From NCBI RefSeq assembly GCF_018304965.1, contig NZ_JAGQED010000006.1, positions 1 through 64,000 of the forward strand: a stretch of 64,000 nt of DNA, written 5' to 3'. Source of the DNA: Collimonas antrihumi (GTDB lineage: Bacteria; Pseudomonadota; Gammaproteobacteria; Burkholderiales; Burkholderiaceae_D). The notes beneath the pieces were generated by a model. The model saw only the letters and a list, made by a program, of their open reading frames with translations. It ran no database searches and was not told the DNA's origin. Every line of letters begins with the position of its first letter. Positions within the stretch are counted from its first letter, which is position 1. This document shows, one piece after another, positions 13,873 through 26,284 of the stretch. Made by a program: the position numbers and the translations under genes.

Positions 13873-14238
13873 CTATTCGCAAATTGAAATAATTTGATTC
13901 AACATTTCACCCGCAAGAATCAGAACTTCTTCCGGTACTTTCTTCCAAGGGTGCGGCTTCGCGTCTCTTAATCGCCAATCGAAGCTTTTGGGCTGATGGG
14001 CAAGTACGTAGCTGACCTTACCCTTCCCGCCAATGAATTTCACTGCAAACGGGTTGTTTTCGTTGGACTCCGCCGTTGTCATCGGCAGGCCAATCACGAT
14101 CCTTGTACGGTCGTTAAATTCTTTTGGCGACAAGACAAGCAACGGGTGAACATCTTTCATTTCTCGCCCGACTTGCGGGTTGCAATCGATCCAAATAATG
14201 TCACGGCGCTCTGGCACCCAAATCTTGCTCGCCATCAA
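13873..14238 (-). CDS. mazF: Type II toxin, MazF/PemK family endoribonuclease
   Basis: A 121-aa toxin of the PemK/MazF fold. MazF-family toxins cut mRNA at short motifs and stop growth. Recognisable are WVPERRDIIWIDCNPQVG (first strand with the conserved arginine and the GxE region), HPLLVLSPKEFNDRTRIVIG and LPMTTAES, the typical P-x-T strand. Normal length. It overlaps the upstream antitoxin gene by 4 bp, the usual coupled order antitoxin then toxin. A remnant of the start of a second copy is attached to the decayed antitoxin at 25238-25519. Confidence 0.92.
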   Translation of the reverse strand: MMASKIWVPERRDIIWIDCNPQVGREMKDVHPLLVLSPKEFNDRTRIVIGLPMTTAESNENNPFAVKFIGGKGKVSYVLAHQPKSFDWRLRDAKPHPWKKVPEEVLILAGEMLNQIISICE

Positions 14239-14677: not shown

Positions 14678-15250
14678 TTAACTTGATCTTTGCTTTAACT
14701 GATCCACAAACCACCTGCCCGCTGGACCAGGCGGCATATCCTTGCGGTATATGGCATGCATGGAAAAGGCTGAGCCAATCGAAGGATGGGCTTCCAGTTC
14801 AATCGTCACGAGTGTCCCGCGTGCGATGTCTTCTTCTACCATGTGTTGCGGCATGATGCCCCAACCCAGGCCCGCACGCAAAAAAGCATGCTTGGCGCCC
14901 AGGTCTGCAAGTCGCCATATCAGCGGTGACATGACGCCAAAATTACGACCTTCCGTGAGGGTGGATCGGTCCGTCAACACCAGTTGCACATAACCGGCGG
15001 CAGTGGCGCGAGGAATCATGCCGCGCAGGCTGGCGAGTGGATGCGAGGGAGACACTACCGCAATGGCAGGAACACTCAATAGATATTCGGATCCGCAATT
15101 GCTTGGCACTTCCGGCAGAGAACCGATGATGCCGATCCGGCTGCGGCCATCCAGAACTGGCTGGATTACTGCTCCAAGCGCCTCGACATACAGCCTCAGC
15201 GGTGTGATGGGAAATGCGGCATGAAAGGCGCGTACCGCTTCAGTAAGCGC
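14678..15250 (-). pseudogene. LysR-family regulator lacking its N-terminus
   Basis: An open frame running leftwards from about 15250 encodes only the effector-binding half of a LysR regulator: EAVRAFHAAFPITPLRLYVE, then LDGRSRIGIIGSL, HPLASLRGMIP and LRAGLGWGIMPQHMVEEDIA. The helix-turn-helix and first about 90 residues are missing. Its broken end abuts the broken N-terminus of the oppositely oriented amidase at 15255, so one deletion probably removed the 5' parts of two divergent genes. An internal ATG at 15109 could start a shorter protein, but it would lack the DNA-binding domain. Confidence 0.8.
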
Positions 15251-15254
15251 TGCA

Positions 15255-15548
15255 ATGGGATACCGGATCGACGCTTTGGCGTTTCCGCATCAACGCCGCT
15301 TGGTTGCTCCCATCGGCGAGACGCAATCTGAACGCAACGGCGTACTCGCATCTGCCACCGGTTTCCCATCCATTGCGATCCCGGCAGGTTTTTCCACGCC
15401 AGGTCAGAATGCGCCGCTGGGCGTTCCGGTAGGCATGGAATTTTTTGGCCGCCCCTTTTCCGAAGCTGTCCTTATCAGGCTTGCTTACGCGGCAGAGCAA
15501 GCCATTCATGCACGCAAAGCCCCTTATGCAACGCCGGCACTGGAGTGA
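15255..15548 (+). pseudogene. Amidase, C-terminal remnant
   Basis: The last about 97 codons of an amidase-signature enzyme: YRIDALAFPHQRRLVAPIGE, then NGVLASATGFPSIAIPAGFS, GVPVGMEFFGRPFSEAVLIR and AYAAEQAIHARK. Normal amidases have about 450-500 residues with the Lys-Ser-Ser triad in the lost N-terminal part, so it cannot be active. Homology begins at about 15260, next to the truncated LysR gene. Together they are the two sides of one deletion junction. The following MFS/racemase/hydratase genes may once have been regulated and fed by this pair. Confidence 0.85.
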
Positions 15549-15654
15549 ACGAAGCAAAGAGAATTTTCACGGCCGAACCTAAAACATAAAACGATCCCGG
15601 TGGCAAATAGTCCGAGGCACACCTCGGCAACCCCCAAACCTGCAGGAGACAACC

Positions 15655-17100
15655 ATGGGTGCAGAAGTAACGGTTCAAACGTCGAATTCCCCGCAACAGC
15701 ATGAGCTTGATCGGGCGATGGACGATATCGGTGTAACGGCTTCTCATAAAAAAATCATCTTCATGATCATGCTCGGTGTGATGTTCGACGTATTCGAACA
15801 GAACGCCGTGGGATTGATCGGGCCCATGTTGCGCGAGCAATGGGGTATTTCGATTGCACAGATAGGCTTTCTGAATACCCTGACCTTCAGTGCCGCCGCA
15901 CTCGGGCGCATCGGCTCAGGCTATATCGCCGATCGATACGGCCGGCGCACGATGCTGAGCGCCAACCTGCTGCTGTTCACGTTGGGTGCAATCATTTGCG
16001 CACTCGCACCGAACTATACGGTGCTGGCAGCGGGCCGCTTTATTGTCGGCATGGGTCTTGGTGGAGAGATTTCCATTGCCGTGACGATGCTGGCCGAACT
16101 GTGCTCCACCCGTTTTCGAGGCACTGCGGTGGGTATGGTCAGCGTGGGCAGCGGCGGGCTCGGCAATATGCTGGCCCCAGCGTTCGGCTTAGCTGTATTC
16201 GCCATGTTTCCGGGACCGGACAGCTGGCGCTGGCTGTTCGGCTGCCTGGTCGTGCCTGCCTTCTTCGTGGTGTTCTACCGACGCTTTATTCCGGAGACCC
16301 CGCGTTTCCTGTTATCTAAAGGCCGTGTCGACGAAGCTAATCGTGTGTTGTCGATCTTGGCCTCGGGGCGGCTGGGTAAACTTGAGGGACAACCAAAGGC
16401 CTATATCAAAGCATGGACGCAAGACAATACCTCGCACCAGAAAGTGCGGCTGCGCGAGGTATTTTCAGGACAGTTAAGGCGCCGCACAATTGCCCTCGGC
16501 ATTGCGGTTTCGATGACCTATGGCGCCCAGATTTCAGTGTTGACACTAATGCCCACCATCTTGATCGCCCAGGGCTACACCATCTCGAAGAGCTTGATTT
16601 TCACGATGGTGATGCAAAGCGGTAGTCTGTTCGGTGCGTTGGCAGCTTCCTATTGCGGCTATCACATCCCGCGCAAGCGCGTGCTGACCGTCGGTGCGGG
16701 ATTGGCCTGCACTGCCGGTTTGTGCTTCGCTTTCCTCACCTTTAACGTGGCGTTGGTACTGTTATTCGGAGCAGCCTTTACGTTTTGCGTGGTACTCCTC
16801 AATACCTCGATCTGGATTTTCGCTCCGGAGCAATATCCGACCCGTGTGCGCGCCTTCGGCACATCTATGATCCTGGCGCTCGGCACACTGGCAGGCGCAT
16901 TGACGCCGCTGGTCAGTGGCCGAGTGTTCCAGTCTTATGGAGTCGGCGGTATGTTTACCATGCTAGCGGCGATGTATGCAGTGTTTGCGCTGAGCGTGCA
17001 ATTTGCGCCCGAAACTTTTGGCCGCCCTATGGGCGACACAGCGGACGATGAACAGGCAGATGCCGAGGTGAGCGATGCAGCCGCCGCAAGACAGGTTTGA
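15655..17100 (+). CDS. MFS transporter (metabolite:H+ symporter type)
   Basis: A 481-aa major facilitator with 12 predicted membrane segments. The loop 2-3 motif is GYIADRYGRRTM. GRFIVGMGLGGE marks helix 4 and PETPRFLLSKGR follows helix 6, as in sugar and aromatic-acid symporters. Both termini are cytoplasmic and hydrophilic. AGGAG precedes the ATG. It is followed 7 bp later by a racemase-family gene and then a hydratase, so it likely imports the acid these enzymes process. The substrate is unknown. Confidence 0.9.
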   Translation: MGAEVTVQTSNSPQQHELDRAMDDIGVTASHKKIIFMIMLGVMFDVFEQNAVGLIGPMLREQWGISIAQIGFLNTLTFSAAALGRIGSGYIADRYGRRTMLSANLLLFTLGAIICALAPNYTVLAAGRFIVGMGLGGEISIAVTMLAELCSTRFRGTAVGMVSVGSGGLGNMLAPAFGLAVFAMFPGPDSWRWLFGCLVVPAFFVVFYRRFIPETPRFLLSKGRVDEANRVLSILASGRLGKLEGQPKAYIKAWTQDNTSHQKVRLREVFSGQLRRRTIALGIAVSMTYGAQISVLTLMPTILIAQGYTISKSLIFTMVMQSGSLFGALAASYCGYHIPRKRVLTVGAGLACTAGLCFAFLTFNVALVLLFGAAFTFCVVLLNTSIWIFAPEQYPTRVRAFGTSMILALGTLAGALTPLVSGRVFQSYGVGGMFTMLAAMYAVFALSVQFAPETFGRPMGDTADDEQADAEVSDAAAARQV

Positions 17101-17107
17101 GGATCGC

Positions 17108-17788
17108 ATGAAGCCCATCTTGCTAATCAACCCGAACACGTCCGTGCTCACCACCCAGATGATGGTTGACATCGCTCGTGCTTGCCTGGCCGACTGGCCG
17201 GGCAGGGTGCCGGCGATACACGGTTTAACGATGCCGCATGGGGTACCGATGATCATCGAAGAAGCTGACTTGCAGGCTGCTGCGCAGGCTGTAGGTGAAT
17301 TGGCTTTCACTCAAACGGAATTGGTGGCAGATGACGTGTGCGGTGTCATCGTCGCGGCCTTTGGCGATCCTGGAGTGACGGCGCTCAGGCAACGGCTGGC
17401 TGTGCCCGTCGTGGGTATCGGCGAAGCCGCAATGCGTGAGGCTGCGCAGCATGGGCGCCGGTTTGGCATTGCGACTACTACACCATCCATGGCCGCCTCG
17501 ATAGTGGCTAATGTGCGGCGCCATGGGCTCGAAGCTGCTTTTAGCGGCGCGCGCTTCACGAGTGGCGATCCGCAGGCGTTCGCCCGACAGCCGGCGGCGC
17601 TGGAAGCCGCGCTGGCTGATGCAGTGGGAGCGTGCATCGACATCGACCGCGCGCAGGCCGTGGTGATCGGCGGCGGCCCGCTCGGCCAGGCGGCACAAGC
17701 CTTGAGCAAGCGCTTCGATATTCCCGTTATCGGTCCGGTGCCGGCAGCATGCCGCAGCCTGTTGCACATGCTTGCCGGCATGCGGTGA
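17108..17788 (+). CDS. Asp/Glu/hydantoin racemase family protein without catalytic cysteines
   Basis: A 226-aa protein of the Asp/Glu racemase superfamily (which also includes hydantoin racemase, maleate isomerase and arylmalonate decarboxylase). The N-terminus LLINPNTS and the motif AAFGDPGV identify it. Family enzymes use one or two cysteines; here the first site (…ACFGDPG in hydantoin racemases) reads AAFGDPG, with Ala84. The second (LGCAGM) reads IGGGPLG, with Gly189. Racemisation by the usual two-base Cys mechanism is therefore unlikely. The ATG at 17108, with GAGG at the MFS stop codon, is better than 17075. It lies between MFS and hydratase genes. Confidence 0.85.
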   Translation: MKPILLINPNTSVLTTQMMVDIARACLADWPGRVPAIHGLTMPHGVPMIIEEADLQAAAQAVGELAFTQTELVADDVCGVIVAAFGDPGVTALRQRLAVPVVGIGEAAMREAAQHGRRFGIATTTPSMAASIVANVRRHGLEAAFSGARFTSGDPQAFARQPAALEAALADAVGACIDIDRAQAVVIGGGPLGQAAQALSKRFDIPVIGPVPAACRSLLHMLAGMR

Positions 17789-17829
17789 TCTACTGATTCC
17801 AACAAAGTCTTTGTACAGGATGTCGAACC

Positions 17830-18597
17830 ATGAATACCTCAAATATTGCCGCCGTGACAGAAGCACTGACTCGTGCAAGACACGAACGACGCACAGTGGA
17901 CTCTGCGTCCTATGCCGATGTGCTTGGTAATGCCGCCGAGGCTTACGCTGTGCAATCCGCAGTGGCGCAATCGTTGGGCTGGCAGACGCCAAGCGCAGGG
18001 CGGTATTGGAAATCCGGCGGCTCATCGCGTGATGCGGAGTTGACCCACGCGGCATTACCACCTGCAGGTGTGTGGGGCAGTCCGGCGGATGCCGGTAGTT
18101 GGCCATTTACGTGGCGTGGCATTGAAGCGGAGATTGCATTGCGCCTGGGATGCGATGTCGATGCCGCGCTGGCCGCCAAGCTCGACTACACAGCTGCCGC
18201 AGAGTTGATCGATGCTATGACAGTCTCCATTGAAATTGTCGACTCCCGCTGGGGGCAATACATCAATGCACCCCCGTTGCTGAAGTTGGCAGACCTGCAG
18301 TCACATGGCGCGCTGGTACTTGGCGACTGGCAGGCTTTTGAGCCAAGAGATTGGGCTGCACAACGCTGTCGAGTGCAGATCGCCCAGAAGATCACGGAAC
18401 GCTGTGGCACGCATGCACTTGGCGATCCAGCTTTCTGTCTCCCCGCATGGTTGCGCCACGCCACGCGTGAAGACCGGGTCGTCGAAGCTGGCAGCGTAGT
18501 TACCACTGGAACATGGGTCGGTATTCTCGACGCTGCGGTCGGGGATCTTGTGACCGTAGTGTTCGAGGGCGTTGGACACGCGTCAGTCCAACTATAA
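17830..18597 (+). CDS. 2-keto-4-pentenoate hydratase family protein (MhpD-like)
   Basis: A 255-aa member of the fumarylacetoacetase-fold hydratase/decarboxylase family. The pattern is: AYAVQSAVAQSLGW near the N-terminus, then a metal-binding motif around GIEAEIALRLG (the E-x-E pair), SIEIVDSRW with the third acidic ligand, and GDLVTVVFEGVGHASVQL at the end. Such enzymes hydrate 2-oxo-pent-4-enoates or decarboxylate oxalocrotonates in meta-cleavage routes. It follows MFS and racemase-family genes and probably acts on their product. No ring-cleavage dioxygenase is near, so an aliphatic or heterocyclic substrate is possible. Confidence 0.85.
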   Translation: MNTSNIAAVTEALTRARHERRTVDSASYADVLGNAAEAYAVQSAVAQSLGWQTPSAGRYWKSGGSSRDAELTHAALPPAGVWGSPADAGSWPFTWRGIEAEIALRLGCDVDAALAAKLDYTAAAELIDAMTVSIEIVDSRWGQYINAPPLLKLADLQSHGALVLGDWQAFEPRDWAAQRCRVQIAQKITERCGTHALGDPAFCLPAWLRHATREDRVVEAGSVVTTGTWVGILDAAVGDLVTVVFEGVGHASVQL

Positions 18598-18954: not shown

Positions 18955-19088
18955 AAAGTCGAAAACAGGGCCATAGTATCCATGCGGGTTCCAGACCTCG
19001 CGGATCCAGCTACAAATTTTCCAAAGTCGAAAACACATTGGTGCAAGCTCAAGAAGTCGGCATTCTTCCAGCAAATAAAGTCGAAAAC
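18955..19088. repeat. Three copies of AAAGTCGAAAAC in a non-coding stretch
   Basis: Perfect 12-mers stand at 18955-18966, 19023-19034 and 19077-19088. The complement GTTTTCGACTTT (one variant) recurs at 25555 and 26157 beside a decayed resolvase, so these may be old ends of a mobile element with multiple terminal repeats. The surrounding 18598-19208 (about 610 bp) carries no convincing gene and is probably decayed mobile DNA. Confidence 0.6.
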
Positions 19089-25519: not shown

Positions 25520-25630
25520 AGCAACTCCTTTAATGTAGAAGCCGGTAATGTCATGTTTTTGACTTTAATTGTAAGGAATATTAGCTAGAATCGGCGCAGT
25601 GGTCATTTCGCGCCAGTGCCTGCAGTTGGT

Positions 25631-25690
25631 TCTTGTGTCAAACTTTTTTATCTTGAGTCAAACATTGTTATTTTGTGTCAGACTTTTTTA
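25631..25690. repeat. Three imperfect 20-bp tandem repeats
   Basis: The units are TCTTGTGTCAAACTTTTTTA, TCTTGAGTCAAACATTGTTA and TTTTGTGTCAGACTTTTTTA, head to tail. They end just before the resolvase homology starts. Tandem terminal repeats of about 20 bp are known from ends of some insertion sequences; which family is involved is not clear. Confidence 0.7.
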
Positions 25691-25696
25691 TTCGCC

Positions 25697-26082
25697 GATA
25701 ACTTGGCTGACGGCGTGGTAGAAGGCAATCTCGAGGATTTGCGCCGCATCGTGCAAACGCTGACGCAGCGCGGCGTACATATTGAATTCGTCAAGGAGCA
25801 TCTTTCTTTCACCGGCGAAGACTCGCCGATGGCGAACCTGATGCTGTCGGTCATGGGTGCATTCGCCAAGTTCGAACGCTCTCTGACCCATGAGCGCCAG
25901 CGTGAAAGTATCGCGTTAGCCAAACAGCGCGGTGCCTATCGCGGCCGCAAGAAATCGCTCACCGATCTGGAAATTGCCGGACTGCGGCAACGGGCCGCTG
26001 CCGGCGAACAAAAAAACCACTCGCTCGTGAATTCGGCATCAGTCGGGAAACGCTGTACCAACATTTGCGGACGACGGAGTAG
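25697..26082 (+). pseudogene. Tn3-type serine resolvase (TnpR), truncated and frameshifted
   Basis: The sequence encodes the middle and end of a resolvase/invertase: NLEDLRRIVQTLTQRGVHIE, FVKEHLSFTGEDSPMANLML and ERQRESIALAKQRGAYRGRK. The N-terminal about 60 residues with the catalytic serine are missing. At a run of seven A bases (about 26011) the frame is lost; one extra base restores PLAREFGISRETLYQHLRTT and a stop at 26080-26082, the expected HTH end. It is therefore a double-damaged remnant of a Tn3-family transposon. Positions 26083-26284 have no gene. Confidence 0.85.
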
Positions 26083-26284
26083 CGCATGCCACGCCGATCG
26101 CTCCTTGCGCTCCAGACAAACAAAGGGGTGGTATCAACCACGACTGGCACTGGTATGTTTTCGACTTTAATTGTAAGGAATAATTGTCCGTAATGATATT
26201 TTTTAGTTACAAATAGACTTCTTCCTTCTCGTAAATATCCGTTTTGTTTGTTACTCAAGGAAAGAAGCTGTCGATATCCAAAAC

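Follow-up and report, generated by a model that had tools for sequence, protein, structure and literature searches.

A cysteine-free branch of the Asp/Glu racemase family with a probable role in the breakdown of imported nitrogen-containing compounds

Introduction

Allantoin/hydantoin racemases carry one catalytic cysteine in each of their two domains. In the Klebsiella pneumoniae enzyme, KpAllR, these are Cys79 and Cys184 in the literature numbering, and the substrate is bound by Asn12, Thr118 and Thr119 (PMC12661438). Arylmalonate decarboxylase (AMDase) illustrates a change of chemistry within the racemase fold: one of the cysteines is replaced by glycine, Cys188 is the only proton donor, a dioxyanion hole is built from Thr75/Ser76 and the reaction is a decarboxylation (PMC4996985). 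Maleate isomerase, to go by the title of structure 2xed, forms a succinyl-cysteine and needs a nucleophilic cysteine. In a different family, replacing a single cysteine by threonine converts a hydroxyproline epimerase to trans-3-hydroxyproline dehydratase (PMC8142540).

Here we describe a protein of the same fold that has neither cysteine, encoded in a 64,000-nucleotide stretch of Collimonas antrihumi DNA (contig NZ_JAGQED010000006.1, positions 1 to 64,000; hereafter the window, whose numbering is used throughout). Among open-licence papers we found no account naming Cys-less members of the family, this operon or a phenotype. The protein belongs to a large and conserved branch, which has retained the pocket surrounding the lost cysteines and probably does a different job, in the breakdown of an imported nitrogen-containing compound.

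Results

The gene product has the fold of an allantoin racemase

The gene (17108..17788, +) runs from an ATG at 17108 to a stop codon at 17786-17788 and encodes 226 amino acids, a start with which homologues agree, as against an alternative at 17075 that would give 237 amino acids and overlap the upstream MFS gene. Residues 4-217 match the Asp_Glu_race family of Pfam (PF01177, E 9.1e-37) over the full domain, at 127 bits against a gathering score of 31, while NCBIfam holds no family for the protein. The solved relatives that align best are the K. pneumoniae allantoin/hydantoin racemase (3qvj/3qvk) and then the Pseudomonas fluorescens AllR (5lfd/5lg5). Likewise, the AlphaFold model (pLDDT 89.8) finds its nearest fold among the allantoin racemases (Z 28-30, maximum 29.7), superposing on 3qvk, 5lfd and 5lg5 over 216-219 residues at 1.8-1.9 Å (Foldseek, VIA-align).

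Both catalytic-cysteine positions are altered

The first-pass annotation had placed the segments AAFGDPG and IGGGPLG on the two cysteine motifs of the racemases and read both cysteines as lost, and on this point alignments and structure agree. AAFGDPG pairs with IACFGDPG, putting Ala84 (codon GCC, 17357..17359, +) on Cys79 of KpAllR, and IGGGPLG pairs with LGCGGMA, putting Gly189 (codon GGC, 17672..17674, +) on Cys184. In the 3qvk chain both catalytic places hold serine, which confirms the two columns, and their alignment is not in doubt because the model matches the allantoin racemases so closely and over nearly its whole length. Superposition gave no sign of a catalytic cysteine elsewhere, and such a residue was also sought by conservation and rejected, only C176 being as high as 45% in the clade described below. 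Judged by the two-Cys feature, then, the protein is a PF01177 member but not an allantoin/hydantoin racemase.

The double loss is fixed across a large clade

Alanine and glycine are fixed at these positions across the main Cys-less clade and in every close homologue, including those of Polaromonas jejuensis (87% identical to the window protein), Cupriavidus (~70%) and Pandoraea (~62%). The same pair is found in Bradyrhizobium, Methylobacteriaceae and Acetobacteraceae, and in plasmid-borne relatives from Rhizobium, Neorhizobium, Agrobacterium, Sinorhizobium, Shinella, Aminobacter, Haematobacter, Thioclava, Chelatococcus and Tsukamurella. In a maximum-likelihood tree built without the motif columns all 51 dereplicated members fell together (support 99/97), as had all 38 of its members in an earlier maximum-likelihood tree (support 100/100). 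The clade spans Burkholderiales, Rhizobiales and Rhodobacterales and includes one actinobacterial plasmid.

The first-pass annotation had allowed that this copy alone might have lost its cysteines and be a dead gene. No close homologue with intact cysteines was seen, however, and estimates of dN/dS, 0.135 against the Polaromonas orthologue and 0.10-0.20 against six relatives, indicate that the gene is under purifying selection. Clade-wide conservation and dN/dS together rule out a dead gene as the explanation for the family.

Relatives that keep a single cysteine are common and of both kinds. Those with only the first (ACFGDPG...LGGAAL) are rows L014-L030 and L080 of our alignment, and those with only the second are rows L005_2 to L012_2, L081 and L083 together with 5lfd, the solved P. 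fluorescens allantoin racemase, as placed by alignment. A second Cys-less group lies outside the main clade in both trees and possibly represents an independent origin of the double loss; a single clade of all Cys-less forms was not rejected in the first data set (AU p 0.40). Which group is sister to the main clade is not stable between trees: it was the first-Cys-only group in the 38-row tree but not in the 51-member tree.

The pocket is conserved and has gained residues of its own

Much of the substrate site is kept. The KpAllR ligands Asn12, Thr118 and Thr119 map to Asn10 (codon 17135..17137, +), Thr123 and Thr124 of the window protein. Asn10 is invariant in all types, and within the clade threonine or serine is found at 123 in 94% of members and at 124 in 67%. 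Phe85 and Gly190, next after each cysteine position, would by alignment occupy the oxyanion-hole backbone positions. N8, N10, A84, T125, G189, G190 and P191 are each present in 100% of the 51 members and D87 in 98%; Glu106 is replaced in Pandoraea. Two of these invariant residues are specific to Cys-less forms: Thr125 (codon 17480..17482, +), whose column holds leucine in 83% of two-Cys racemases and glycine in the first-Cys-only group, and Pro191, whose column holds glycine in all two-Cys forms. A replacement base was not apparent, as no Cys, His, Lys or Tyr position reaches 50% in the 51 members. Taken together, these invariant residues and the want of a conserved Cys, His, Lys or Tyr imply a pocket that is under strong selection yet lacks the side chains that usually serve as acid and base.

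Importers and ring-opening enzymes are the recurrent neighbours

In the window, an MFS importer gene (15655..17100, +) ends 7 nt upstream of the Cys-less gene and an FAA-hydrolase-family, hydratase-like gene (17830..18597, +) begins 41 nt downstream, all three being co-directional. The importer is nearest to the aromatic acid/H+ symporter subfamily model, below its cut-off, and is 85-91% identical in Cupriavidus and Polaromonas. The FAA-hydrolase partner belongs to its superfamily (PF01557, 38 against 23.9 bits), is 64-69% identical in Cupriavidus and 56% in Polaromonas, and is adjacent to the Cys-less gene only in these two and the window; against the 2-oxopent-4-enoate hydratase equivalog TIGR03220 it scores 35 bits where the cut-off is 408.8. 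The first-pass interpretation stands in part. The conserved Cys loss, purifying selection and conserved operon with the MFS gene make retained function likely. The new reaction type that it proposed is a conjecture, and its hydratase link is weakened by that score and by the confinement of the pairing to three lineages.

Among dereplicated loci, an importer lies within 1.5 kb in 27 of the 51 Cys-less cases and in 6 of 18 two-Cys racemases, and a PuuE/hydantoinase/amidase-type enzyme in 19 of 51 and 8 of 18 respectively. These are minimum counts, since neighbours were identified by a simple ORF caller and by tblastn searches with a small number of reference proteins; nor can neighbouring lineages be taken as independent. 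Partners both more widespread and more telling than the FAA-hydrolase are the importers and the enzymes of PuuE, hydantoinase or amidase type. The operon shared by Polaromonas and Cupriavidus comprises a BhcA-like aminotransferase, an amidase, an MFS importer, the Cys-less gene and the FAA-hydrolase, the Cupriavidus order being aminotransferase, MFS, amidase, MFS, Cys-less gene, FAA-hydrolase. In Pandoraea the order is RpiR regulator, MFS, Cys-less gene, second MFS; in Aminobacter, Sinorhizobium and Shinella it is RpiR, MFS, Cys-less gene; and in Rhizobium, Neorhizobium and Agrobacterium an Opp/Nik-type ABC importer is followed by the Cys-less gene and then an RpiR regulator. We also noted that the copy in Cupriavidus sp. 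UYMMa02A (L048 4540-7339) has frame breaks in the MFS and racemase-like genes and a shortened FAA-hydrolase match, which reflect either sequencing errors or decay.

Several loci place the Cys-less gene beside ring chemistry. In Paracoccus it follows a two-Cys racemase and an NCS1 transporter whose best specific match is allantoin permease, below cut-off. One family (G1248) has three co-directional genes, for a hydantoinase, the Cys-less protein and a PuuE-type enzyme, and alongside them a CN_hydrolase gene. In genome G1272 (L131 6062-9047, -) two different Cys-less paralogues overlap a D-hydantoinase that scores above its equivalog cut-off, and the operon has no two-Cys racemase. A hetero-oligomer with a two-Cys racemase was considered as a general rule and set aside: Paracoccus has such a racemase nearby, but both G1272 paralogues are Cys-less.

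In hydantoinase clusters a Cys-less gene stands where the hydantoin racemase would be. This might suggest that these proteins are racemases or epimerases still, acting through weak or non-cysteine acid/base groups or water on a hydantoin or another substrate whose alpha-proton is unusually acidic. Hydantoin racemases do work via an enolate, and Asp/Asp or Glu/Glu pairs serve in other racemase families (PMC8142540). On the other hand, alanine and glycine at the base positions offer no side-chain function, and the clade has no conserved pair of Cys, His, Lys or Tyr. It also should be considered that many cyclic imides, the presumed substrates of the PuuE-like enzymes, lack a stereocentre. KpAllR chains with both cysteines changed to serine exist in the PDB (3qvk). 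We regard continued racemisation as unlikely.

The operon is reduced in this genome

Window positions 15518-17857 are 86% identical to Polaromonas DNA, and relative to the Polaromonas/Cupriavidus operon the window keeps only the MFS, Cys-less and FAA-hydrolase genes. All that is left of the aminotransferase partner is a remnant on a different contig (G000:C4:71307-71687; L194 7308-7687), 84% identical to the Polaromonas partner, in which an internal deletion joins residues 58-149 to 400-431. Upstream of the MFS gene lies a fragment of a LysR-type regulator (14678..15109, -; 143 aa), consisting of the substrate-binding domain only. No ring hydrolase lies next to the window's own operon; targeted searches located a PuuE-type allantoinase and a dihydropyrimidinase in this genome, far from it. 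The Cys-less type was not found in sampled relatives of the host's genus and family, and for this reason the gene was probably acquired.

The LysR fragment, the aminotransferase remnant and the absence from relatives might indicate a subfamily that is functional elsewhere and a gene that is partly decayed here, in an operon that is breaking up. We consider this improbable, as the reading frame is intact, its identity to Polaromonas is high and its dN/dS low, and the MFS and FAA-hydrolase genes are likewise intact and co-directional.

As separate observations on the surrounding DNA, three direct copies of AAAGTCGAAAAC occur at 18955, 19023 and 19077 (window 18955-19088), and an inverted copy at 26157 falls within the terminal part of an incomplete resolvase ORF (25616-26170). 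Allowing at most one mismatch, 6 copies were found where 0.32 would be expected. They may bound a mobile element carrying a LysR regulator, transketolase halves, a 3-hydroxyisobutyrate-dehydrogenase-like gene and an MFS gene. A PemK/MazF-like toxin gene (PF02452) lies at 13873-14238 (-).

Discussion

The window protein is most likely an enzyme whose chemistry would need no two-base proton swap. The account that we tentatively favour, with somewhat less than even confidence, is of a functional branch that does not racemise by the two-Cys route and helps to catabolise an amide, cyclic ureide or imide taken up by the cell; its chemistry would perhaps be an elimination or another reaction through an enolate. 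The operon would import a small amide, cyclic ureide, imide or related acid, and this compound or its ring-opened product would be bound by Asn10, Thr123/Thr124 and a backbone oxyanion hole beside positions 84 and 189. With the two-base pair lost, racemisation would not be expected. An enolate or carbanion would most likely be stabilised instead, with elimination (as in a lyase or dehydratase), decarboxylation or tautomerisation to follow. The proton might be moved by Thr125, by the shared acidic residues Asp87 and Glu106, or by the substrate itself; these three residues are guesses from conservation, with Thr125 our first suspect. Neighbours vary by lineage, so it is not certain that one substrate is shared by all. 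A bolder version holds that this subfamily, together with the second and possibly independent group, has converted the two-Cys racemase scaffold into a Cys-free enzyme, such as a lyase, a tautomerase or one acting on amides or imides. Its new active site would be formed by Thr125 and the GGPL loop, and it would serve an uncharacterised pathway for the import and breakdown of cyclic ureides, imides or amides; we regard this as possible but doubtful.

The main rival is a pseudoenzyme. Its pocket would be a binding site for the compound taken up, or for an intermediate, and the protein would act as a sensor, chaperone or regulatory partner of the transporter, RpiR regulator or ring hydrolase, with no catalysis. 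As an account of the missing base this is about as simple as an enzyme, as the lack of a conserved general base is equally expected of a non-catalytic binder: both acid/base residues are gone, no replacement is conserved and the pocket residues are conserved still. The gene's linkage to transporters and RpiR regulators is also stronger than its linkage to any one enzyme. Against this, the invariant Thr125 and the G189-G190-P191 loop look re-tooled rather than relaxed, 19 of the 51 loci lie beside catabolic hydrolases, and some modules consist of a transporter, a regulator and the Cys-less protein only, where an enzyme would be the simpler need. On balance we judge a pseudoenzyme possible but rather unlikely.

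The branch also has wider consequences. With both cysteines lost and no decay across so large a group, many genomes probably carry a mistaken racemase annotation. Such a branch is a natural experiment in how the racemase fold changes its chemistry, and its operons hint that Cupriavidus, Pandoraea and rhizobia have a route of uptake and breakdown that is so far undescribed.

Comparison with known systems places the protein closest to the allantoin racemases. KpAllR (3qvj, 3qvk, 3qvl) is alike over the whole fold (Z 28.3, 219 residues, 1.9 Å, 29% identity) and shares the NPNTS start, the FGDPG loop and equivalent substrate ligands. It differs in that, going from KpAllR to the window protein, Cys79 becomes Ala84, Cys184 becomes Gly189 and GCGGM becomes GGGPL, while in the pocket Met17 becomes Thr15 and the leucine after Thr119 becomes Thr125. 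PfAllR (5lfd, 5lg5) is the closest by structure (Z 29.4-29.7) and by alignment also lacks the first cysteine (AGYGEHG), but unlike the window protein keeps the second (LGCGGM).

AMDase shares the superfamily fold at only Z 16-17, and maleate cis-trans isomerase (2xed, 4fq5), which acts on a small acid, shares it at Z about 18 with 18% identity. As structural relatives at Z 16-18, both might invite the view that the window protein is an ordinary enzyme of one of these types. Each, however, needs at least one of the cysteines. Where AMDase has Gly74 and Cys188 the window protein has Ala84 and Gly189, the motifs LMGTSLSF and ILLSCGGL are absent, and Thr75/Ser76 correspond by position to Phe85/Gly86. 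Placed via the allantoin-racemase alignment, neither position has the cysteine of maleate isomerase. With these defining residues absent, we rejected both identities, and an ordinary enzyme of either type is highly improbable.

The trans-3-hydroxyproline dehydratase belongs to a different family and offers a functional analogy. Its change from cysteine to threonine is on one side only, unlike the double loss in the window protein, yet it shows a racemase-type site that, minus a catalytic cysteine, has become that of an elimination enzyme.
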